The notes beneath the pieces were generated by a model. That model did no database searches. It saw only the letters and a list, made by a program, of their open reading frames with translations, and was not told the DNA's origin. Both the position numbers and the translations under genes were made by a program. A stretch of 64,000 bases of DNA from Gigantopelta aegis (taxonomy: Eukaryota > Mollusca > Gastropoda > Neomphalida > Peltospiridae), in contig NC_054702.1 of assembly GCF_016097555.1 (NCBI RefSeq), forward strand, positions 91,477,798 to 91,541,797, given 5' to 3'. This document shows, in pieces, positions 21,688 to 52,651 of the stretch (its first letter is position 1; every line of letters starts with the position of its first letter).

Positions 21688-23624
21688 TACGTATAATTGT
21701 ATCTTTACATTTATAACATTCGTATGTACTCAGTAATATATAATGCAGGTATTAATAATACTATTCCAAATCTAAAATCATACTATGTACAAATACAAAC
21801 ATATATATCTTACAAAGTATCTAACAAGGGCCCTTTATACCTGATACTGCCTGCTAAAACATGTCCATGTTCCTATACAAATAATTAATCTGTTAGATTA
21901 AGCACATGATGAACACAATATAAAATAAAGCTCAATGAATACTATACTAATAAAATATGGTATAAAATAAACACGCAACCAACCGAACACAAATGGACAT
22001 GAGTTCCACCCGTACCCCCTTTCAATGGTTAGTTTAGTTTTAGGGATATGGTTAGGGTTAGTCTTTAGAGCCTTTGATATAGAGGGGTACGGGTCGAATT
22101 CTTTTTCACAAATGATATATCAACGCTCAATCATAACACATTGATACATTATTTTAAATGTATTGTTTATATGGAAATGTTATTACATTATTAAACAGAT
22201 TCAAGTTAAGTATGTTATTACTAACCAATACCATATCATAATTCATATTTAAATTTACATATTAAAAACATTATTATAATTTATATTTAATTTATTATAT
22301 TTAATTTAAACATTATTTAATATCATGCTGACAGTTAGTTCAACATTACAACAATTATTTGTTTTACTAACCTTATAGTCATGCAAATATCTTGCTTTGG
22401 TCTTTGTTTCTCTTCAAAAGTCTAAGTTGATCAAATTTTTTAACTCTTCGTGTATCTGAGATGAATCGCCCAGATCCTAATAACGCTAAAGTTTTTACCC
22501 AGGTACGTTATATAACACCCAAGCCACAGAAAATACCTAACAAAAGAAAGAGTGTTAGGTGGTGTAAAACTTGTGTCTACATAAGTTGTGCAAAGCCGGT
22601 TATGTTAACTGCTGAAAATAAAACAATGGTAAAATACTAAAATTACCCTGCTACATGTTCATGGTACTTTAAAATATTTTTAATACACGTATTATTTAAT
22701 TATTATAATTATTATACAATGTATTAGGCAGCTAGAAATAAAGGAATATTGCAGATTGTATTGAGAATTTACTATCCATAATTTGTTTTCTGTGTGAACA
22801 CTTGGATGTTTAGTCAGACGTATAGGACAATGCACAACATAAGATGTGGTGTTGTGTTTCGACTTTCAGTGTCAAGTCAAGACGGCCGTTAGTGAAGTCA
22901 AGGAAGTTGGTCGATGTCCAGGGAAAGATAACTCTTATGCACGCCTATCGAAGAAAGAGCTGGCTTTGTACATCGTCACCGAAGCGGCGACGTTGTTGTA
23001 TCTGACGTATTGTGTATACTGGGATTCCATAGGTCAGACATTTAGGATGAAGTTAAAATTCATTCTGAACGAATTAGTACATGTATACATGTAAAATTAA
23101 TATGATTTATAAACGGTTAAACAAAGTTATATATAAAACGACAATCTGCATGTAAAATGAATATTATTTATAAGCGGCCAAACTAAGTTATATATAAAAT
23201 GACAATCTACGTGTAAAATGAACATGATTTATAAACGGTCAAACCAAATTACATGTAAAATAACCATCTGCATGTAAAACGAATATAATTTATAAACGAT
23301 TTTGGGGGTTGGTGGGTGGGCAAATGCTCTTTATAAAGAGGTAACACTACGTGCTCATTTACGGAAAGAACACTGTACTAATATTTATGAAGTTTTCTGT
23401 GCACACATATAAAAACGTTACTTTTATAACTAGCTTACCTGTGTGTAATATTCTTAATATTTTCATGTAGACAATACATATATAAGCTTCTAATTAGAAA
23501 ACATTTAAGCTCATTATCTTAATTGTTTTGGTAGAATTACTTGGATCAAGACTAAGGCGACTTATTTGTCTGAGCTATATTGTTTGTGAGTGTGTGTTAT
23601 GTATGTGTGTGTGTGTATGTGTGT

Positions 23625-23655
<31 letters not shown>

Positions 23656-26600
23656 GGTTGTGTGTGCGTGTGTGTGTGCGTGTGTGCGCGTGTTTGTGTG
23701 TATGTGTGTGTGTGTGTGAATGAGGATGTGTGAGGGTGTGTGTGTGTGTGAGTGTGTGTGTGTACGTGCGTGTGTCTGTGTATATCGTGTGTGTGTGTGT
23801 GTGTGTGTGAATGAGGATGTGTGTGAGTGAGGGTGCGTGTGTGTGAGTGTGTGTACGTGCGTGTGTCTGTGTGTATCTCGTGTGTGTGTGTGTATCGTGT
23901 GTGTGTTGGTGTGTGTTTGTGTACCTGTACATGTGAGTATTTGTGTATAGGTTTGTTTGTGTGTTAGTGTTCGTCCGTATGTATAGGTGGGGCGTAGTCT
24001 ATTCCTAATATCACTACATAGGAATAAATTATTGTTTTCCTATGTCTGATAGGAACATACCTATTCGTAGAAATGTATTTACTGGAAGAGGGGTACTCTC
24101 AAAAGAGATGTCTATTTTTCATAAAACGTTATTGTAGGTATTATATTCGCATACATAGTTTATATTTGATAATATTATGTTGTGAATAGTGTTTTATTTA
24201 AAACATCTGGCCCAAACCCCACTCATATAATAATTTACAGCCCTGAATGATAAATAGAGAATAATAAATGAGTGGTCGTTAGATACCATTTATCTCACAA
24301 CGAGTTTAAAAAAAAATGTATCTTACGACCGAAAGTTGTGAGACAAATGGCATTATTCTATTTCTTACATATCCTCAAAAAGCAGGTTTTAAGCAAATTG
24401 TAACATCTTTATTGACTAAAAGATATTTACAACCCTTTGCACTTGTAGCTGCCTTACCTATATGTCACAGTGTAATCGATTTCCACCGTGCTGTTTTTTA
24501 TTGGACGTATGACATTGCTGACCTGGTCATCACCTAGGAGCAGCCAGTCGTATGTCTTGACATTGTTAAACACACGTACGTGTGTAAACAACTATGTGTT
24601 ATAAAAAATAGCACATGGTGTTCTCACCAACGGTTGTGTAAGAAATGTTCTCTTATTATGCGTTTGTGCTTTATTTTGTTTCTCAGACAGGACTCGATGG
24701 TTAGAGGTTTCCTTAGAAGACGGCTGGTCATGGCTTCAGCGAAGACGGGTGAGCAAACAGACATTTTTGGAATTCAAAGAATTGTTAAAGGGACATTCCT
24801 GAGTTTGATGCATTGTAAGATGTTTTCAACTATTAAAATATTTCTACGATTTAAACTTACATATTAAATATATTTTCTTGTTTAGAATACCAGTGTCTGT
24901 GTATGCAATGTGTTTCTGGTCGTCTTAATATTTGTAAGAAGCCCAAACTGGATTTTGTCTTCAAATAATTTCGTACGTATGAAAAAATTATATTTTAGGA
25001 AATAAAATGAAATTTAACCTAGTACAAATACTAGAACGATCCTAAACGCGTTTAATATACAGCTACTAATATTTTATTTTAAAAAATATATTTGATATGT
25101 AATTACAATAGTTAAAAAGTCTCTGTTAGTCGATGACATCTTAAAAATTGCAGTAAACAGGAATGTCCCTTTAACACATTATTGATATCGTGGCTTAGTT
25201 TATTGGGGAGGGGGTAATTGCTTTCTTGTGTTTGTTTGTGGAAAGGTTGTTGTTATTTTATTTAGCCATTGACATCGTAATGTCTTAAGATAAATGTATA
25301 AATGATTTAATCGACTAATGAAACAAATGTTGCATCGCATAATTTACAAACACATTTTATTAATTTGACTTTTTTATAAAATGACATAGTAAAAAAAACG
25401 TAACTAATGTAAGTGTCATGTTTTGTATAAATATGCACACTAATGTGTTAAAATTTAGGTATGTTGTTGCATTTCACCAATTCACGGGTTTGTTTATTTA
25501 TTTTCCTAATGCTCAAATGTACTATTAATTATTTACTACAGGATATCGCCGACTTCGAGTGGAGAATTTGGTACAGGACACTGTGGCAGCTGTTATTGTG
25601 GTACTCAGCCCATTTTCTTCTGGGAAAACTTCTGGAAGAGAACGCTCCAAGGGTGCGTTTTATACAAATACGTCACATCACGTATATGTAAACCTAGCAT
25701 TCCTATAAATGGTGTTAATATTTTATATTTTAATCGAATGCTATGGATAGTGCTATTAGACCAAAAAAATAAACAGTCGGTCTCTGGTTAGAGAAAATTT
25801 CAATAATTAATGAAGAGATACGGAAATTCACCTTAGTTCAAGCCAGAACTGGGATACGATCCCAATATCTGCAAGGCTCAAGGCCGGTGGCTTAACCACT
25901 ATACCGAAAATGTTCGGGGTGTTATAAGTGGTGTTGGTGAATGCTGGTGATTTTGGAAAATGTATGTAACAAATAAACCTGATCTCTAATAAAAGGATTG
26001 GAACCAGTACATCTTTGCGTTAGAGTCTAGTTCTGAATTGTTATCTCCGCTATTTTTGTCATTGAAACACGCTAAAACCATTAAATATATTTTGTAGCAA
26101 ACTATTCTACATAAGTTTTTCGATTTCATGTTTTTGGGTTGTTGGGTTTTTTGTTTGTTTGGGGTTGTTTGTTTTTTGTTGGGGGTTTTTGTGGGGTTTT
26201 TTGGGGGGGTGTTGTTGTTGTTTTGTGGGACGGGTTTGGAGGCGGGTTGGCTGTTTTGGGAGGAGAGATCCTTACGTTTTCTAACTATCGTTTTGTTACG
26301 TTGTAAGAACATGTACATAATTTTTGTAACCATGTAATGATTGGGTATACATTTATTCTAGACTGTCTTATACAGTCCGACGCCATATAACCGTAAATAA
26401 AATGTGTTGAGTGCGTCGTTAAATAAAACATTTCCTTCCTTCCTGTTTTACACAGTGTTATATATTTAACTGTTTTCGTTTCAGTTCAGAAACATCGGGT
26501 ACTTGATACTTGCAATGTTATCCCTTCTTCAAATGTTTGGCTGGAAGATCGTTCTGTTATTTATGGCTCACACCTGTGCCGTGTTTCTTGCTGCCAGTTT

Positions 26601-28251
26601 TGGTAGTACTGCTGTCGTCTGGGCAACGAGCCTCGGTTTGATGTGCATCATGAATTTTAACATACCGCAGATCTTTTTAGTTAGTATAATTAATGTAATC
26701 ACATTATTTAACATGATTATTACAATTGGATATTATATACATTTTAAAGTTAGTATATTATAATTGTATTATTGTATAAAATATGTTTAATGTAATATAT
26801 TATAACTAGATGTGATATCTGTGCACCTTCTGGGTTTTCGTTTTGATTTTTTGGTTGGTTGCTTTGTTTGGTTGTTTGCTTGTTGTTGTTTTTGTTTGTT
26901 TGTTTGTTTGTTTGTTTTGGTATTGTTTTTGTTTGTTTGTTTGTGTGTTTGTTTGTTGTTGTTATTTGTTTTTGTTTTTTTGTTTGATTGTGTTTGGTTT
27001 TTTCTAAATATGTTTAACCTCATACGGAATTGGCATTAGGCTTTGGCTGACCTTGGAGCAAATCATCCTATAAAAATACAATTTAACTTCCATTATAAAA
27101 TATTATTTGAGAACCTACTCTGGATTATCTTTTAAAAGTACAACATAGAAATGTGAAATTCACCAATATCAAAGTTCATAGTGGCATTACAATGGAAACA
27201 TTAGTTCACGCCACTCAGTACGTTTTATGACAAAAACGGTCTCTTAGGCCAAATTTTAAAATATTTACCTTGATTGACAGAATAAAAATTTTTGCGCCAA
27301 GAATAAAAGGTTCGGACACAAGTTTATGTGGCCATCTCATTTACCTTTTTATATAGCAGAATAAAGAAGTATGTCAGAGTTATTATAGTCAAATAATATT
27401 AATTTTGTTGGCCCTATGCTAAAACAATTTAAATTTATGAATTTCTGTGCTTGGGTTTCTAATTTTCGAAAAGATTAATCATCACGGTTTATTATTAATT
27501 TATTATTATCTTCTCCTTTATTTTTTTTTTTATTTTTTTTTTTTTCTAGAAGTCTCTGATTACAACACAGGAAAACAAAGAGGAGTTCGTTAATATCGTA
27601 AATATGGAATTCGGCATGGTCACTCTTAAATGTATCAGTTTTTCTTTGGAGAAACTGAAAAGCCAGACATCACAGTCAGATTCCAAAGATAGGCCAGATT
27701 CGAAAGAAAGGTCAGATTCGAAAGATAGGTCAGATTCGAAAGAAAGGTCAGATTCGAAAGAAAGGTCAGATGGTGAAGATTCACAAGAAAGAAGCCAGAA
27801 TGAGACAGACGCGTCGTTTGAAAGTCCCGCGTCAACAGACGTGGATGAGAAACCATGTGACTCCTACAGTCTGACCGATCTGTTGCAATACACGTTCTAC
27901 GTCCCTCTGTTTTTCTTCGCTCCAGTCGTGACGTTCGACACTTTTAAAACCCAGGTAATTAATTCCATATGCTAGAAATATACATACTTCGAGAGTTACC
28001 GATTTTTGTATTTACTATTCTACTTCCTGAAACTCAAAAACTATTTTTCACTATTCTTTTCCAGACTTGTTTGGGAGGAAATATTGAGGTTTCAGTTGTC
28101 GTTTAAGTATGTAAATAATTTATATTTGCAGATGCCGGATTCCTAGAATTTTGAAAATATAAATCATGATCTTTTTTTAATCTTTTTTGTGTGTTTTTTG
28201 CCAGAAGTCACTCCTCTTTGACATTTCTTACTAAAATTATTTATTTTGTCT

Positions 28252-28287
<36 letters not shown>

Positions 28288-31200
28288 CCAGATCAATGAA
28301 AAACCGCGTCCGTGGAACAGACGTAAAGTCTATCATGCCATATTTGCATTCGTCAGAATTGCCTTCTGGACTTTCTTCGTTGAATTCTCTTTGCACCACT
28401 TGTACTTCTCCGCCATTATGAGGAGTCCACACATCCTGAGACGTCTCTCCCGGTGGACGCTGATAGGGATCGAATACTTCTACCTCCAGCTGAGGATGGT
28501 CAAGTACTTTGTCTTCTACAGTCTCGCTGGACAGATAGCTAAGCTGGACGGTGTTGATGTCCCTGGACCTCCCAGCTGTATCTTCTACATCTACCGCTTC
28601 TCTGACATGTGGAGGTGAGAATTACATCAAGTAGAAACGCGTGGACTATGTACATGAGTCATAAGTGAAACTGTTGAATTATATTATTCTAGGGGCGGGA
28701 CGTAGCCCAAATGGTAAAGCACTCGCTTGGTGTACGGTCGGTCTACCGTTCCAGCCAGTGCTCCAATATTGGGGTAACAATGGTCATGGTATGTACTATA
28801 CTGTCTGTGGGATACTGCGTATAAAATATCCGTTACTGCTATAACTGAAAAGAGTAAACCCATTGTGTGACCGCGGCGGGTTTTCTCTCTTATTATTTGT
28901 GAGGTCCTTAACAATATGTCCGACGCCATATAACCTCTACGTAAAATGAGTCGAGTACAACGTTAAATAAAATATTCCTTCCTTCCTATATTATTTTATG
29001 GTAGCTTGGTGTTCAGTGCTCGGCTGGGGTACAATGAATTATAGATCTCGCTCGGTGGACCCATTAAGTCACTTTCCGTTCTTATAATTGCAAATCCGTA
29101 GGAACTGGGGAGGCCTTCCCACTTGAGTGCCTTAGCATTTATGATTGTCCTGCTGTATATTTAGTACTTATTATGACCTTTAAAATAGCCGAGTTGTTTA
29201 AATATTCAGATGCTAGGAAATTGCTTTTATAGCCCCCCCCCCCCCAAAAAAAAAAAAATCCCCCCCCCCCCCCCCCCCCCCCCTCCAAGTATAAACATTT
29301 CTTAGATCCCTCACATCAAATCGTTCAATGTTTAAGTATTTAGATGCTAGGAAATTGCAAATATTTCGCTCACCGTTCCCTCCATTTCAAACGGTCTTCC
29401 CACCGGCCTCAACTGCCTACGACTGATACATCAAATGGTTCATAAAACAATGACCTTCTCCCTGCTAATGATAAGTGTACATAACCTATGAAAAAGCAGC
29501 TGGATTCTTTCTTTATTATGGCAAAACTGTATATAGTGTCCAATATTTCTTCTTTGTGAGAATACGTATAAGTTACTGACTTAGTTTCTTTTCAGATTAT
29601 TCGACAAAGGATTGTATAAATTTATCACGAGGTAAGTACGAAACGATTAAATACATACACAACAGCACTCTTCTGAATGTTTAGAATGATTTTCAGGAAA
29701 GTAATCCTATCAATTTAATAAACACGATAATTGCATTTCTTAAATATAGCACGAGATGCTACACAGGTTACTTGTACAAAAACAATCAGAAAAGTGCAAT
29801 ACTGCCAAATCTATATTTATTAAAGTGCGTTAAGTATTCAGGGTGTTATTTGGTCTAATCTAATTATGGGTTGCAGTAAAAACTAAATAATCAGGGCAAA
29901 CAAAGTATAGGTTCGTTTCCAGCTAAAACATTCCCAGTCTGGAGCTCCACGCGATAAGACGTGTTTGTTTCGCCTGTGCACACTGCACGTGCTTTCGTGT
30001 GCTCGACTTCATTTCGTTGTTTTTGTCAGCGAAATGAAGTTTTCTACTGGGATGTATGCGGCCATTGGAACTGATTGAACGCTGGAACGCTTCTCGTTTC
30101 GACAGCCTGCACCACCAGGTTGGATTCTTTTTTAGCGAGATTCCTTGCCTCCACGTCATTTCTCCGTCTGACTGTCGACTTGGGGTTTTTTTCGTGACTC
30201 GTATGACGGCTATTCTGCAGAACGCCACGGTTGTTCGCGTTTAGTCTCTACATGTCCGAGCCTGTCCTAGCAGCACTGGAAGATTGACCGCCCCACTTTA
30301 AGAAGAAATAGGAAGCGGGGTCGGCCCCTACTACTCTTTTTCTAGACTTTACCTTGCTTTATAGTGATACCATCTCGTATCCTCCGGAGTCGGGCCCGTC
30401 CGCACCACTATACCAAACCATGACGACTGGACTATACCCAAGTCTGATACTCTCTCTCGTTCAGACGGATCCGGCTTCTCAAGATCTGTATTTCAGCACA
30501 GCACTACACCTTCAACGTCTATCGACTGTCAATCTAGGGGTTTTCTTGACGGGATGCAACCCATCTCGTCCCTTTAAGCTGTGCACACAAACGGCCTTAA
30601 CGAGGCCACTCGCGTGGACATATCGATCGGATTTTAAACTTTTAGATCTGCGTTCAAAACTTTAAGTCGAAATTACTTCTTTTTTAAAAATATTATTAAA
30701 TAGTCCGATCCTCTCTTCTTTCTCTTATTTAATTTTGGACTGTCCTTCTAAAATGCTCCAAATTATATAAATATTCGGCCGAGCAGTCAATTTTTTTTTT
30801 TTTTGGCTTGTAACCTTTTTTTATTTATTTTATTTATTCTATTAACGTTTTTACTAATTGCTATTTTCAAAATTCTGCCCATTTTCATATCCCCACCCCC
30901 CACCCCCCATCCATCCCGAGTGAGGCCACCGATCTTATCGGAGGTCGGACTCGGGATGGGCGTGTTCGAAACCCTAGTGGTATATGGGTACGTTAAACTA
31001 GTTATCATCATCATCCAGCTAAAACAAAACATAGTCCTTCACACAGAACCATAAAAGAGGCTTACTTTTTGAGTAGGTGGTCACGGTAAGGCACATTTAC
31101 ACTTTATTGTTCTAAGGGGAGCGACTTCCATTTGCCTCTCGCAACATAAGACTTTGGTATTGTGGTTTGTGCGTCTGTTTGTTTGTTTGTTTGCTTGCTT

Positions 31201-33105
31201 GCTTGCTTGCTTGCTTTCTATTTGGTTTTGTTTGTTTGGGGGGGGGGGTCGTTTTGTTTTGTTTTAGCTTTTGTGTTTATTGGTGGGTTTTTGTGTTAGT
31301 GGTGGTTATTTTAGTTTTATTTGGTGGGGCATTTTGAGGGAAGAGGAATGGAGATGGGGATGTAATGAATTGGACAAATTCATGATTGTACTTCCATTCA
31401 ACTATCAACTGCAACACGTGATTTGTTTTCTCTATATTTCCAGGTATATCTACATTCCGCTTGGAGGATCCAGGTCTGGGCTTTCTCAAAGACTGTTTGG
31501 GTCATTTGTCTGTTTTATGTTCTGTTATGTCTACCGCGGCCTAGACGTCTTTGCGTTAGTATGGTGTCTTTTCGCCTTCGCTGAACTAGTTCTAGAAATC
31601 TGTGCAGCTCTACTGCATGAGAATCCAATGGTTCAAAAATTTGAGGCAAGTAAAATAAGATATAGATATAGGATATAGTTTACTTTCGGGAGAGGGTGGT
31701 GGAAGAAATTAGCCCTGACAATGTTATGGGTACCATGTGTTCCGAATAAGCAGCTGTAGGTAACTCATACACTGGCTACTGGTTAAAATATCAGCGACGT
31801 TATATAATAGCAAGGAATTAACACACTTAAGGGAATAAAATTATTATTTTAAATATAACATATCTGTAGCAAAGCATTCATTCATGCATTTGTTGTTATT
31901 TCTGTTCTTATATCCAAATAAGGTTCAAGCACGCAGTTCTAGGCACACACCTTAGGTATCTGGACTGTCTATGTATGATAGTGGGTTAGTGGTTAGTTCT
32001 TAGTGAGAGAGAAAAGTCGGTGTAGTGGCCTTACAGCTACTCATTGAATCGGTAAACTCGCTCTGGGTGGGAGCCGATACTTATGTCCGATGGCTTAACC
32101 ACTACACCACCGAAGTCGATTACAAACTATGTATTTGTAGGATCTGCCCTTTAAAAAGTCAGTCTTTGCTTTTGCCTTCGTCGCTGGGTACTGTATATTT
32201 TATAATACACAAATGAAACTTGCATGCTTGAATAGGAAGAAATCGTGGTCCTCATTGTCAAATCAGACAACAGGATTAAGTATAATTCCACTAGTAGGTG
32301 TAAACTGACATGGTATGAATTGACATGGTATTCAGTATTTTGAATTTAATGGAAATATATTTTAGAAAGAGATATTTTAAAAATACTCTTAAATAATATA
32401 TTCCTACTAATGTGGTGGCTAGCACAAACTGGACTGCATTTGATGTTTTTACTGCAATCGAGGTAGGTTTAATTTTTGGAACAATGCAGGTAAGGTGCAG
32501 TCGTTTTGTTGAGTTGTTTCTAGTAAAATTTTACTATTGAATTCCGGAACATTATGTCTATAAAGAAGTGAGGTTGAGGGATTATGGTCCCCAACCCCCA
32601 ACCCCCGGCTACGCCAAAGCTCTCTGATCTTATTTATCTTTTTTTTCTCATTATCTTTTTTTTCCCTGTTTACTTTATTAAGCCGGTCCACTAGTATATA
32701 GTCATGTTTGATAAGATTTGCAATTAACCGAAAACCCAGCCAAATGGAATTAAAGAAAGACAGACAGAAAAGCCGTGAGAGTGTAACTATACACTGATTG
32801 TGTTTTTATCTTCGTAGACACGATTCCTAAGACCAGTGTGGGTGAGACGACTCCGCGCCTTGTTTGCAGTTCCTGGCTTTCTGATCTGTATGTTCCCAAT
32901 GAACTACTTCATCGCGGGAAGACAGATGGGCGATCTTTATGTGAAGAAGATGCTTATTATGGGTAGGTTTCATTCTCGGTTTGTCTGTCTCGTTTGAACA
33001 TTATTTGTCTCTCACATTATCTCTTTCTTTGCCCCCCCCCCCCCCCCCCTCTCTCTCATTCTCTCTCCGTCCTCTCGATCTCTCTCGATATCTCTCTCTC
33101 TCTAG

Positions 33106-33175
<70 letters not shown>

Positions 33176-33650
33176 GTCATACATACATACATACTGACGC
33201 ACAAGCATATACAACGTAGGTACATTGTTACTTCTAAGAGGAAATGTATATGATTAGTTTGACACTTTGTTTACACAGTATCATGAAAACCCGTTGCCGC
33301 TACATCGATTACTCCTACTTGATAGCAGCCATACAAGGATTCTTTTGTATGCACTCTCCTCTAGACAGGATAGCACACACCAATCCTTTGATGTGTTGTT
33401 CGTGGGCGTACTGGTTTGAACCGAGAAAACTTGACGCGTCCACTCTTGACTATCGATTCTACGATCGACTGCACCTCAGGCAAACTCTCTGCCACGGAGT
33501 CACATTAAAAAGACAAAATTCGGTTTTCTATTTCCAGGAACTTGGACGCCTTTGATTATAACGTCCTATCTACTGTACTGCCACATTCAAGTCGCCATCG
33601 AGATTGAAAGAATAACTAAAGCCAAGCTTTTGAAACTGAAAAAGGATTAG
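17542..33650 (+). CDS. HHAT: Hedgehog acyltransferase-like MBOAT protein, catalytic His replaced by Arg
   Basis: Eleven coding exons: 17542-17544, 22870-23032, 24687-24748, 25542-25652, 26485-26679, 27550-27954, 28292-28614, 29596-29631, 31444-31645, 32818-32962 and 33538-33650, giving 585 residues. HHAT-type enzymes palmitoylate the N-terminal cysteine of Hedgehog ligands in the ER lumen. Matches to the human protein as I recall it include [10 protein letters not shown] (human DATDFEWSFW), MVKYFVFYS (YVKYLVLFG), [20 protein letters not shown] (YFDVGLHNFLIRYVYIPVGG) and the C-terminal MBOAT tail. Asp424 and Cys409 (the heme-ligand position in human HHAT) are kept. Where HHAT has the catalytic histidine in WHGGYDYLW, this protein reads YRGLDVFAL, so Arg464 (codon CGC, 31535-31537) replaces it. 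It is longer than human HHAT (493) mainly because of a charged loop in exon 6. The C-terminus KLKKD fits a KxKxx ER-retrieval signal. All splice junctions are GT-AG except GC-AG after exon 9. No in-frame stop is seen, so it looks like a maintained pseudoenzyme or altered enzyme rather than a pseudogene. The first exon is the least certain part. Confidence 0.88.
17549..17598. repeat. (CA)n microsatellite
   Basis: Interrupted CA repeat immediately inside the proposed intron 1 donor of the plus-strand HHAT gene. Confidence 0.9.
17717..18033 (-). repeat. tRNA-derived SINE (head 2 + tail B)
   Basis: Minus orientation. The right end, read on the minus strand, gives GAGCGGGATTTAGCTCAGTC, a tRNA-like A box, then AGGATCGAACC, a B box. 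The left end is the tail AAGTTTGTTTTGTTTAACGA. The body has CATCGGCTATTGGATGTCAA. It lies in intron 1 of the plus-strand HHAT gene. Confidence 0.88.
18123..18438 (+). repeat. tRNA-derived SINE (head 1 + tail A)
   Basis: Head GGGCGGGACGTAGCCCAGTG, then GTAAAGCG and a B-box-like GGATTGATCCCC. The body has GTTCCAGCCAGTGCACCACG and GTGCATATAAAAGATCCCTG. The end is GTTAAATAAAACATTTCTTT. This is the best-preserved member of the family here, in intron 1 of the plus-strand HHAT gene. Confidence 0.92.
18560..18814 (-). repeat. tRNA-derived SINE (head 3 + LINE-like tail)
   Basis: On the minus strand the head reads CCGGCCTCAGTGGTGTCGTG then GTTAAGCC (A box), and later GGTTCGCAGCCC (B box). The left end, its 3' part, reads GGTTCAAGCATGCTGTCCTA, then CCTGTCCAGGACAG. 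This matches the 3' end of the LINE-like element at 34252-35684 (GGTTTCAAGCATGTCTGTCC). A second copy lies at 31905-32119. Confidence 0.88.
18957..19233. mobile_element. TTAA-flanked MITE, copy 2
   Basis: Same ends as the element at 12937: AGGGACATTCCTGAGTTTG and CAAACTCAGGAATGTCCCT. TTAA at 18953-18956 and 19234-19237. In intron 1 of the plus-strand HHAT gene. Confidence 0.9.
19297..19420 (-). repeat. SINE fragment
   Basis: GACAGCAATAGGTATTTTAT, then GCATTTACTCTTAGATAGAA and ACATACCACGGACTTT, are body pieces of the SINE family in minus orientation, ending in GGAATCGATC. Head and tail are eroded. Confidence 0.65.
19444..19673. mobile_element. Short inverted-repeat DNA element (MITE)
   Basis: Left end CAGGGTTTCTGCCAG and right end CTGGCAGAAACATTG are inverted. 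Inner repeats TATGGCGCCATACC and TTGCGCCATACC also pair. ACTATCA occurs at the left junction and again right after the right end, consistent with a 7-8 bp duplication, so hAT-type is likely. No coding content. Confidence 0.7.
20585..20620. repeat. Pyrimidine/poly-C tract
   Basis: TCTCTCTC followed by about 20 C residues. Possible G-quadruplex on the minus strand. Frames across it are artefacts. Confidence 0.9.
21305..22655. mobile_element. LTR-like unit (possible solo LTR), fossil
   Basis: About 1.35 kb bounded by TGTAGCAGG at the left and CCTGCTACA at the right, the TG...CA inverted ends typical of long terminal repeats. ATGT flanks the unit if its ends are set one base inward. No internal coding region or second LTR is seen, so a solo LTR, or an unrelated inverted-end element, is possible. 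It lies in intron 1 of the plus-strand HHAT gene and contains a (TA)n tract near 21644-21684. Confidence 0.4.
23582..23935. repeat. (GT)n-rich microsatellite cluster
   Basis: Imperfect GT repeats with an internally duplicated block (GTGTGAATGAGGATGTGTG occurs near 23715 and 23804). In intron 2 of the plus-strand HHAT gene. Reading frames encode only Cys-Val or Thr-His runs. Confidence 0.95.
24789..25170. mobile_element. TTAA-flanked MITE, copy 3
   Basis: AGGGACATTCCTGAGTTTG at the left and an AACAGGAATGTCCCT end at the right, flanked by TTAA (24785-24788 and 25171-25174). It begins 40 bp after the exon 3 donor (exon ends 24748) in intron 3 of the plus-strand HHAT gene. It is longer than copies 1 and 2. 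Confidence 0.88.
25840..25910 (-). repeat. SINE head fragment (head 3)
   Basis: On the minus strand: GTATAGTGGTTAAGCCACCG, an A-box-like stretch, and a GGGATCGTATCCC B-box-like stretch. No tail is recognisable. Confidence 0.6.
26375..26445 (+). repeat. SINE tail fragment (tail A)
   Basis: CCGACGCCATATAACCGTAA, then AAAATGTGTTGAGTGCGTCG and TTAAATAAAACATTTCCTTC, is the 3' end of a tail-A SINE. It ends about 40 bp before exon 5 of the plus-strand HHAT gene. Confidence 0.85.
26835..27005. repeat. T/G-rich (GTTT)n tract
   Basis: Runs of GTTT and GTT in intron 5 of the plus-strand HHAT gene. A similar T/G-rich stretch lies at 26120-26240 in intron 4. Confidence 0.85.
27550..27954 (+). CDS. HHAT: Exon 6 of plus-strand HHAT paralogue: expanded charged loop
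   Basis: Phase-0 exon of 135 codons (residues 179-313). Between the conserved SFSLEKL and [18 protein letters not shown] segments it carries about 65 extra residues relative to human HHAT. Residues 221-250 are five tandem hexapeptides of the form (S/P)DSK(D/E)R, encoded by an 18-bp DNA repeat at 27676-27765, followed by [10 protein letters not shown]. The paralogue has a loop of similar length but without the repeat (Asn/Ser/His-rich). The loop joins membrane segments; which side of the membrane it faces is not shown by the sequence. Confidence 0.85.
28692..28985 (+). repeat. tRNA-derived SINE (head 1 + tail A)
   Basis: GGGGCGGGACGTAGCCCAAA head, GTTCCAGCCAGTGCTCC body, GTTAAATAAAATATTCCTTC tail. 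In intron 7 of the plus-strand HHAT gene, 77 bp after the exon 7 donor. Confidence 0.9.
29231..29284. repeat. Poly-C / poly-A low-complexity tract
   Basis: C run, A run, then a second C run in intron 7 of the plus-strand HHAT gene. Assembly here could be imprecise. Confidence 0.9.
29931..31014 (+). mobile_element. LINE-like (non-LTR) insertion with 12-bp target duplication
   Basis: Flanked by an exact 12-bp direct repeat CCAGCTAAAACA (29919-29930 and 31015-31026). It ends with GTACGTTAAACTAGTTATCA then TCATCAT, a short-repeat 3' tail as in several LINE clades. It shares ATTCGGCCGAGCAGTCAA and GAAACCCTAGTGGTATATGG-like blocks with the minus-strand element at 34252-35684. The 5' end is probably truncated and no reverse transcriptase is visible. 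A CTTCATTTCG / CGAAATGAAG hairpin lies at 30008-30034. In intron 8 of the plus-strand HHAT gene. Confidence 0.75.
31168..31265. repeat. (GTTT)n/(GCTT)n and poly-G simple repeat
   Basis: GTTTGTTTGTTT then GCTTGCTTGCTT, followed by a G run, in intron 8 of the plus-strand HHAT gene. Confidence 0.9.
31444..31645 (+). CDS. HHAT: Exon 9 of plus-strand HHAT paralogue: altered catalytic site and GC donor
   Basis: Codes [13 protein letters not shown], then [18 protein letters not shown], ending ENPMVQKFE. Arg464 (CGC at 31535-31537) sits where the paralogue has His458 and human HHAT has its catalytic His in YWHGG. A single G-to-A change at 31536 would give CAC (His). The exon ends GAG followed by gcaagt, a GC donor. 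Using the nearby gtaaaa instead would put the next exon out of the conserved frame. Confidence 0.9.
31905..32119 (-). repeat. tRNA-derived SINE (head 3 + LINE-like tail)
   Basis: Second copy of the 18560-18814 type: left end AGGTTCAAGCACGCAGTTCT, middle CACTCATTGAATCGGTAA-like sequence, right end on the minus strand GGTGGTGTAGTGGTTAAGCC. It is more diverged and has lost part of the B-box side. In intron 9 of the plus-strand HHAT gene. Confidence 0.82.
33008..33178. repeat. C run and (CT)n microsatellite
   Basis: CT repeats with a TCTAGAGCTCTC interruption, in intron 10 of the plus-strand HHAT gene. Frames read Leu-Ser or Arg-Glu only. Confidence 0.95.
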
Positions 33651-34251: not shown

Positions 34252-35684
34252 ATCCAATATTTATTTACATGCTCATATACCACGAAGGTTTCAAGCATGT
34301 CTGTCCTGGGCATAATCTCTGGCCTTTGCCAGTGACTAAGTCCAGGACAGAAAAGGGTGGGGGATAAGTTTGAAGTGGGCAGATTTTGGAATAAGAATTT
34401 AGTTGTGTCCAGCGACTGCGCGGACCGACTAGTAGACACCGAAAATGGGCCGTGTTCTGACTGGCTGAATTTCGATTCCTTCGGGTCTAACTAGAAAAGC
34501 TAAAGTCTACGGAGAATAACAGCACCTAACATCATGTCCGGACTAAGAATTTAAACCCAAAAATAAGTTTGACTGCTCGGCCAAAAAGGTTTTAAGGTGA
34601 TTTGAGCAATTGAACGGGCGCCAAAGTAAATTGCGTTGGACTATTTATAAAAAAATAAACATAAAGATTTTGAAGCTCGATCGAAAAAGTTTAAAGTCCA
34701 ACTAAGCCCAAAAAAGGAGGATACCTGTCCTAGGTAAGGTTGTACTACTTCGGGGAGCTTGGAGTGTCTCGGAGCGACGGCAGCTTATCCCTGATCTGCT
34801 GTAGATGTTGGAGCACCTTGGAATAGTCGGGGCCGCAGACCGCTTGTAGCATCCTGTGGATCGATCTGTTGTCGAGTTCAGCAAACAGGATGCACTGTCT
34901 GTAGGTCTGGTCCCTTCGGTGCGTAACGACTATTCCCTTGGTTCCGTTGAAGATCTTGGAATGAAGCTCGTAACTGCTTGCCGTCGTCCATGGTCTTCCA
35001 GTGGTGGTTCGATATCCTCCCCCGAAGTAGTTGTGGTTTCTGCGTGTCCCCCTGTATGTACTGATGGAGATGACGGCGAAGTCCACTGATGGCAATGGTC
35101 CATTCGTCGTCAACAGGGGGAGCGGATTCCGGCGGCGGCTTGGTCTTGGCTGGCTGGGTGGTCGGTGATGTTGCCTTCCTTTTCGTCGCCAGAACAACAA
35201 GTCCATGTGGCGACTCGACGGGAGCGGTCGTTGTTGACCGCTGCACCGGAGTCGTCGTCTTTGGGGTGGAGGTTGAAGTCGGTGGTGGCACACTCGTCCG
35301 TTTGAATCTCACGATTTCCCTGGGTGGTGTACGGCCGTTCCGGGGATGCAGGCTCCACAAGTGGTTGCGTCCTCTCCGGAGGACTCGGTGGGGGCGGTAT
35401 CACAGGAGGGAGCGCCACTGGCGGTTGAGCCGCCAGCTTTGTCCCCCCCTGGGCCTTCCCTAGCACCGGTTTCTTCCTTCTTCTTCCTCTTCCAGTCCCC
35501 CCTTTCCGTTTCTGTGGAGGCGGGTCACCATACACCAAAGTCACGGTCGCCCGTGACCCGGTATACGTGACCCGGAACTCCAACATCGGGCCGAAGCTGG
35601 CAATCAGTCCCCCCAGGTGGGGGGGGCATCTCGAGAGCGCACGTTGACACGTCCACCTTCATCGAAGGACAGCTGGAGAAAAAG
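34252..35684 (-). mobile_element. LINE-like insertion with 13-bp target duplication
   Basis: Flanked by the exact direct repeat CTTTGTATTCCCA (34239-34251 and 35685-35697). Read on the minus strand it starts in GC-rich, coding-like sequence (Pro-rich, with a basic KRKGG/GRGRRRKK stretch) and ends with blocks shared with the element at 29931-31014 (CCGAGCAGTCAA; GAAACCTTCGTGGTATATGA). The coding-like part also holds DYSKVLQHLQQIRDKLPSL near its 3' side. I do not recognise the protein family; an ORF1-type product is a guess. It lies between the two HHAT 3' ends and is much more GC-rich than its surroundings. Confidence 0.7.
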
Positions 35685-37179: not shown

Positions 37180-50956
<13,777 letters not shown>

Positions 50957-51156: not shown

Positions 51157-52651
51157 CTCTTCAAAAGAAGAAACGCAAAACCACATTGTCGTAACATTTG
51201 GAGAATTGATTTAATTATTGAATGGTGAGTCCGATAATTACCAAATGTTGCAGGATTGTTCACAATTCACTCTAGTCCATTGTGAGTAAGTGATAGGACA
51301 CACCACCAAGGTCAAGGTCATCTAGAGTCAATACCGGGTGTGGCCTCCGCGTGTGTTGACAACTGCCTGGCACCGCCTGCCCATTGAAGCAACCAGAGTA
51401 CGGATGACGTCCCGGGGGATGGTGGCCCACTCGGCCTGCAAGGCTGCTGCCAGCTCGGGCAGGGTCTGGGGCTGTGGTTGTCGCTGTCGGAGGCGTCGGT
51501 CCAACTCGTCCCATAGATGCTCAATTGGGTTCAAATCCGGTAATATCGATGGCCAAGGAAGGACATTAATGTTGTTGTTCTGTAGGAAAGCCGTTGTGAG
51601 ACGTGCTGTGTGAGGCCTGGCGTTGTCATGTTGGAACACTGCGTTGGCGTTGGCCATAACTGGAACGATGTGTGGCCGGAGGATCTGGTCAATGTAGCCC
51701 TGTGCATTCAGGTTGCCCTGCACGTGGACCAGGTCAGTTCTGCCAGTGTGTGAGATGGCTGCCCACACCATGACACTACCCCCGCCGAATCTGTCCACTT
51801 CCTGCACGCAGTTTGCCGCATAACGTTCCACCACGACGCCTATACACGCGACATCTTCCATCATGACGTCGGAGCAGAAATCGGGACTCGTCACTGAACC
51901 ACACCTGTCTCCATCGCAGTTGAGGCCATTGTCGATGAATCTGGCACCACTGCAGTCGGAGTCGACGGTGTTGTGGTGTTAAGATGACACCTCGAACTGG
52001 ACGTCTGGCACGAATTCCTACCTCACGTAGGCGGTTCCGTACGGTCTGGTCGGATATCCTGCGCAAACCTGGTATTGCTGCGGCTGTGGAGGTGGCAGTA
52101 GTCAATCGTTCCCGAAGGTGGCGTACCCGGATGTAGCGGTCCTGCCCGGGGGTAGTGACCCGTGGTCGACCGGATCTAGGGAGGTCACGTGTTGATCCAT
52201 GTTGCTGGTAACGGTCCCACAGTCTGGAGATGGTGCTTGGGGACACATGGAATGCCCTGGCAACGGCCGTTCTGGATTCGCCTGCGTCTAGTCGGCCGAT
52301 GGCATTGTTTCTCTGCGGTTCACTGAAACGTGGCATGTCCTGGATTGTCAACTGTCGGCCAGATACAGAGGCCAGGCAAGCGAACACCCTGCACTTTTAT
52401 ACTGTCGGTGTTCATGTTGCACGTGCAGACAACGCACGTGCAGTGGTGACATGGTTTGCACGTGGCTGCGTTTTTGCGAATATTCACATTTTGGAACTTT
52501 ATTGTACAGTAGCTGCGTTTTATCGAATGTAACCGTGGGAATGTGTTTGGGACATGCAATGACCTTATATTCACAAAGCATGAACCGGTAGGAAACATAA
52601 AATCGGAGTTATAACCCATTTGTACCCTTTTGCGTTTCTTTTTTTGAAGAG
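51157..52651 (-). mobile_element. Tc1/mariner element, Tc1-like, about 1.5 kb
   Basis: Inverted ends CTCTTCAAAAGAAGAAACGC (left) and, on the minus strand at the right, CTCTTCAAAAAAAGAAACGC, flanked by TA. The length is typical of Tc1 elements. It encodes a Tc1-type transposase on the minus strand and lies about 200 bp upstream of the minus-strand HHAT start codon. Confidence 0.9.
51328..52336 (-). pseudogene. Tc1-like DD34E transposase with one frameshift
   Basis: Starts MPRFSEPQRNNAIGRLDAGE, a paired-type helix-turn-helix, followed by a second HTH region with GRPRVT. The DDE domain shows WFSDESRF (first Asp), FQHDNARPHTARL (second Asp) and LPDLNPIEHLWDEL (Glu); exactly 34 residues separate the second Asp from the Glu, so it is DD34E, as in Tc1. 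The frame shifts near 51828-51836, between VYRRRG and ERYAANCVQE, where one extra G (GGTGGAACG instead of GGTGAACG) best explains it. The catalytic triad is intact on either side, so the copy died recently or the base is a sequence error. It ends GGHTRY. Confidence 0.9.

Follow-up and report, generated by a model that had tools for sequence, protein, structure and literature searches.

What kind of protein is encoded by an HHAT-type gene that carries arginine where the family carries its catalytic histidine (human His379)? Such a gene lies in the stretch of DNA analysed here, referred to as the window, which comprises 64,000 nucleotides from the assembly of the deep-sea vent snail Gigantopelta aegis (C4:91477798-91541797). 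The original prediction for this locus took the MBOAT histidine to be required for acyl transfer. For HHAT itself that requirement is unsettled: the human H379A mutant had no activity in a peptide assay, as reported in PMC8693861, but retained 49% of activity, and showed a higher Km for Shh, as reported in PMC2890405. A ready comparison is offered by a natural paralogue in which His has become Arg and the reading frame has been kept, alongside a sister with His and the canonical gene.

Three HHAT loci and their exons

The sequence C4 carries three HHAT loci. The canonical gene, HHAT1 (C4:91313842-91366357), is outside the window; P (22870-33650, plus strand) lies approximately 134 kb downstream of it and is followed by M (49849-37180, minus strand). 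P and M are convergent and have ten exons each. Searches of the assembly with P and with the G. aegis protein P0030 (HHAT1), in which only the best candidates were scored, yielded 18 matches each, and every match listed fell within these three loci. P0030 is reproduced exactly by the ten HHAT1 exons of the assembly. P0001, a further G. aegis protein, is 99% identical to M over 71% of M; it represents a truncated model of that gene, entering the GC-AG intron after exon 8 and ending there.

Exon models were constructed from homology and splice borders, and their phases match between P and M. Homology to M and HHAT1, together with AG/GT borders, placed the first exon of the homologous series in P (22870-23032, plus strand). 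Homology and splice borders likewise define, on the same strand, exon 2 (24687-24748), exon 3 (25542-25652), which reads DIADFEW and contains the equivalent of Glu59, exon 4 (26485-26679), exon 5 (27550-27954), exon 6 (28292-28614), with the equivalent of the heme residue Cys324 and the changes F296R and G305S, and exon 7 (29596-29631), which in its 36 bp encodes LFDKGLYKF and the Asp339 equivalent. The same applies to exon 8 (31444-31645), which holds the arginine codon as well as W378Y and N392A, and to exon 9 (32818-32962). The original prediction had been drawn at precisely the limits of exon 8, which enters in phase 2, ends in phase 0, and has an AG acceptor and a GC donor (gcaagt). Exon 10 (33538-33650), closed by TAG, was assigned from weak homology to HHAT tails (E approximately 1e-4 in the window) and from a fitting phase, acceptor and stop. 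A candidate start exon of 14 residues (22461-22502, plus strand) was proposed by eye from its ATG, open frame, consensus donor (gtacgt) and fitting phase (0) rather than from homology.

For M, all on the minus strand, homology and splice borders define exon 1 of the homologous series (49687-49849), exon 2 (48624-48688), exon 3 (48094-48204), exon 4 (47056-47250), exon 5 (46311-46694), exon 6 (45684-46006), exon 7 (45385-45420), with the Asp339 equivalent, exon 8 (44746-44947), with the retained histidine and a GC donor, and exon 9 (43907-44051). Exon 10 (37180-37289), closed by TAA, was placed like its counterpart in P, from a weak resemblance to HHAT tails (E as low as approximately 3e-4 in the window) and from a fitting phase, acceptor and stop. 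A start exon for M was searched for and not found.

The exons sum to 584 residues in P and 577 in M, with no stop inside either, so the expectation of an intact frame was borne out. Every intron position and phase of P agrees with those of M and HHAT1, and the hallmarks of a pseudogene (lost introns, stops, frameshifts, broken splice borders) are absent from its ten exons. It is apparent that the assignment to HHAT, also part of the original prediction, does not reflect a chance resemblance: P matches human HHAT chains (1e-37) and the Pfam MBOAT family PF03062 (75 bits against a cut-off of 27, 8.9e-21), M matches the latter at 2.5e-23, and the two proteins are 52% identical.

Several other features were observed in and around these genes. 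The intron after exon 8 is of the GC-AG type in both P (31645-32818) and M (44746-44051); HHAT1 has GT. An 18-bp tandem repeat of 5.4 copies (27675-27771) in exon 5 of P encodes a linker rich in Ser, Asp, Lys, Glu and Arg, and a 61-bp tandem repeat of 3.5 copies (23088-23298) occupies the intron after exon 1. On the minus strand, a Tc1/mariner-type transposase is encoded at 51328-52396 in two overlapping frames, with DDE_3 and HTH_Tnp_Tc3_2 domains, and three overlapping long open frames are present at 34745-35658, two of which were scanned without a Pfam match. Elsewhere in the G. aegis genome, 36 exon-level matches to Hint/Hog domains (E up to 0.001; 35 above the curated cut-off) were recorded at loci L023-L030, many of them clustered on C5, C11 and C12. 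Their number suggests an expansion of putative Hedgehog-like autoprocessing proteins in this species. Two of these loci, L024 and L025, combine an AIG1 GTPase and a Hint domain within one open frame.

Arginine at the histidine column and its neighbourhood

As predicted, P reads YRGLDVF where M reads YHGLDVY and human HHAT reads WHGGYDY, and the arginine codon is CGC, at 31535-31537. The column was compared with that of 24 other HHATs, namely 23 proteins and pieces of the human enzyme; each of them has histidine, and arginine occurs in P alone. The relatives were taken from protein searches, among the matches listed (5 of 5156, the best 14 of 7996, and 17 of 41 candidates). The distant MBOATs P0011-P0018 were kept outside all alignments, P0001 (partial M) and P0010 outside the comparison of 24, and P0009 outside both that comparison and the tree. 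In a separate alignment of 27 rows, which included P0001 and P0010 but not the human protein, histidine was again present in every row except P. P0010, a flatworm MBOA7-like protein, has the histidine and a Tyr at the W378 column. The suggestion that molluscs had made a pseudoenzyme is too broad for these data: the arginine was seen in one species, and all 15 of the others counted as molluscan, among them HHAT1, keep histidine, with P0023 and P0027-P0029 so counted by tree position only.

The ancestral state was probably His, most simply encoded by CAT. The codon is CAT in both M and HHAT1, so CGC requires two base changes, rather than the single transition from CAC that had been proposed. This also bears on whether the arginine could be an assembly or sequencing error in a gene that really encodes histidine. 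The residue is known from a single assembly, but an error would have had to alter two bases; the exon also carries N392A, a change that is likewise confined to P and affects a site invariant elsewhere; and no copy of the exon beyond that of M was found in the assembly. The host is reported to have been sequenced with both PacBio and Illumina libraries (PMC7895826), in a paper that dates its split from Chrysomallon squamiferum to 116 Ma. An error is accordingly regarded as highly improbable. When 31300-31800 was searched as DNA against the assembly, the matches were the query locus itself and M, and no second haplotype contig was found. The idea that P and M themselves are haplotype duplicates was rejected, their coding DNA being just 66% identical.

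P and M are sisters in the tree (support 100/100), on a stem of 0.73 changes per column. Their grouping with HHAT1, Haliotis and three further proteins received 92/95, under the 95 mark; trees in which the three G. aegis copies were constrained to form one group (p-AU 0.283), or to do so with Haliotis added (p-AU 0.404), were not rejected, so that the P/M lineage may have arisen from HHAT1 within this lineage. From its sequences, the second HHAT lineage is best described as a fast-evolving one that has split into the convergent pair P and M. Among the columns that are conserved in 95% or more of the other 24 HHATs (42 in all), P and M share the loss of four residues, G217 (Ala), F296 (Arg/Lys), G305 (Ser) and W378 (Tyr); the only further difference common to both is the absent start Met. 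H379 and N392 are missing from P alone, and Y20 and P212 from M alone. H379, W378, G217 and N392 are each present in 24 of the 24 other HHATs and all absent from P. In the human protein, W378A left 30% and G217A 20% of activity (PMC2890405). Because M shares these losses with P, the neighbour that had been described as intact is itself derived and no canonical HHAT; that role belongs to HHAT1, approximately 134 kb away. The four common losses also make the loss of His in P a late step of a longer drift.

The shared losses and the long stem could mean that both genes were neofunctionalised for another substrate, the loss of His in P being incidental. That account leaves unexplained why P alone lost the histidine, and no substrate is known; it is given very little weight.

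Among residues with described roles (taken from PMC8693861 and PMC2890405), P keeps human F58, E59, Y207, R250, W254, C324, W335, R336, F338, D339, G355, S357 and F372. Asp and Cys were thus correctly predicted to be preserved, although at 423 and 408 rather than 424 and 409 (numbering without the start exon; human D339 and C324). Luminal Glu59, at which charge reversal abolishes human HHAT activity, is Glu in P, M and HHAT1. R323, a heme salt-bridge residue that is variable among HHATs, is Ser in P; L257 is Phe, as in most other HHATs; Y382, Y384 and G448 are Asp, Phe and Ala, respectively. Several of the binding-residue changes of P also vary among other HHATs. Judged from these residues, the acyl-CoA and heme sites of P look largely usable, and the catalytic and some luminal positions have moved.

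Probable selection on P

The pairwise omega between P and M, calculated from 519 codons that do not belong to the repetitive linker, is 0.33 (dS 0.97), a value of 1 being rejected (p=8e-18). When both sister branches were given the same dS, P had an omega of 0.40 and M one of 0.27. Under this assumption omega=1 for P is rejected (p=2e-10), equality of the two estimates gives p=0.043, and values of 0.30 and 0.50 for P lie 3.2 and 2.4 likelihood-ratio units, respectively, from the best. When the dS of the sisters was free to differ, omega=1 for P was not rejected (lnL -5117.78 versus -5117.11), but this test carries no information, since HHAT1 is saturated at synonymous sites and its branch length is at its bound. 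Purifying selection, on which the original prediction depended, is therefore evident for P and M together, but on the P branch it can be told from neutrality only under equal dS. When omega between P and M was calculated exon by exon (Nei-Gojobori), the arginine-bearing exon 8 gave the highest value (0.36, 67 codons); the other eight measurable exons range from 0.18 to 0.29.

Losses confined to P or to M were also counted at mollusc-conserved columns. At those conserved in at least 90% of the 15 molluscan-treated sequences, P alone differs at 13 and M alone at 6 of 101 (p=0.17), those of P including human positions 289, 293, 379, 392, 439, 444 and 447. Other column sets gave 9 versus 4 of 77 (p=0.27), 23 versus 8 of 149 (p=0.011), 31 versus 12 of 195 (p=0.005) and 37 versus 20 of 252 (p=0.033). 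Taken together, these results indicate that P is probably under constraint, and that this constraint is weaker than that on M.

The lower constraint could be compatible with slow decay, and the possibility must be weighed that P lost its function recently, with the arginine as one early lesion. P is indeed faster than M at conserved sites. In 2000 simulations of a neutral P branch, a mean of 20.9 stops and a minimum of 8 arose, and P has none; when neutrality was confined to the last 5% of the branch, 13% of the runs were stop-free, but for the last 10% the proportion was only 2.4%. P was not among the annotated proteins matched, a weak sign in that P0030 was also missed by part of the same searches. 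Against decay, all ten exons are free of stops, frameshifts and lost splice borders, and at the 42 near-invariant columns P has two losses of its own, as does M. Recent loss of function is considered unlikely. That P still looks shaped by selection despite the loss of His suggests a job other than ordinary catalysis.

Possible functions and comparison with known systems

The explanation that we favour, at about even odds of being correct, is that P has been retained as an HHAT-type paralogue with weakened catalysis, probably as a pseudoenzyme that binds or regulates, similar in this to vertebrate HHATL (GUP1) but apparently of independent origin. This reading is suggested by HHATL, which has Leu at the position of the catalytic His and reportedly both interacts with Shh and lowers its palmitoylation (PMC2890405, PMC5831804); the analogy drawn in the original prediction was a fair one. 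In the P/M lineage, the Trp that adjoins the catalytic His would have gone first, together with three further residues that are almost invariant; the split into P and M would have followed, and after it the loss of the His itself from P. The protein would still fold as an ER-membrane MBOAT protein and retain the Cys for heme, the residues of the palmitoyl-CoA gate and phosphate site, the Glu that contacts the peptide, and the Asp. Its transfer of palmitate to Hedgehog would be poor or absent and, by analogy with HHATL, it would most likely persist as a binder or regulator that holds acyl-CoA and/or a Hedgehog or Hog-type substrate.

The main rival to the pseudoenzyme is an active enzyme free of histidine. 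P may still be active, given that it keeps the Asp proposed to activate the substrate and that H379A was 49% active in one assay. In such an acyltransferase, Asp339 would activate the substrate and Arg would donate the hydrogen bond to the carbonyl of the thioester, and the acyl donor or the secreted substrate might be a different one; we regard this as possible, though with a good deal less confidence. Asp339 mutants of human HHAT were nearly or fully inactive, as reported in PMC2890405 and PMC8693861. His379 is described as perhaps a hydrogen-bond donor, with a proton shuttle argued against (PMC8693861), and the one-step model of Jiang et al., as given in a review (PMC10213974), has Asp339 as the activator. 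Glu59, the heme Cys and the CoA-site residues are also kept, and the 36 Hint/Hog matches make further substrates conceivable. On the other side stand the complete loss of activity of H379A in the peptide assay and the absence from P of both W378 and N392, found in all 24 other HHATs. The narrower proposition, that an MBOAT enzyme with Arg in place of the near-universal catalytic His still acylates, Asp339 activating and Arg polarising the thioester, appears slightly less probable again.

Among the matches listed in a search of the open-access literature, no title was found on a His-less mollusc HHAT or such an MBOAT pseudoenzyme.

In comparison with HHAT, Skinny hedgehog and Rasp, the canonical Hedgehog N-palmitoyltransferase, P shares MBOAT homology and the equivalents of Asp339, Cys324, Glu59, Trp335 and Arg336, but is without His379, Trp378, Gly217 and Asn392. 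Possession of more than one HHAT is a feature that G. aegis has in common with other lophotrochozoans, as exemplified by Hhat1 and Hhat2 of Platynereis and the pairs of Solemya and Mercenaria. Unlike P, the Solemya and Mercenaria pairs keep the histidine in the alignment, and His379 is among the conserved sites of the Platynereis proteins according to a figure legend in PMC9695228.

The closest parallel is HHATL. Like P, it is an HHAT-family MBOAT paralogue that has kept the Asp and lost the His in a genome that also has an intact HHAT. The two differ in the replacement, Arg in P and Leu in HHATL, and P is sister to M (100/100, 52% identical) in a tree that contained no HHATL sequence, a placement that speaks against orthology to HHATL. 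From these comparisons, the loss of His in P looks independent of that in HHATL. Should P be a regulator, HHAT pseudoenzymes would have evolved in animals on two or more occasions, by way of different residues.
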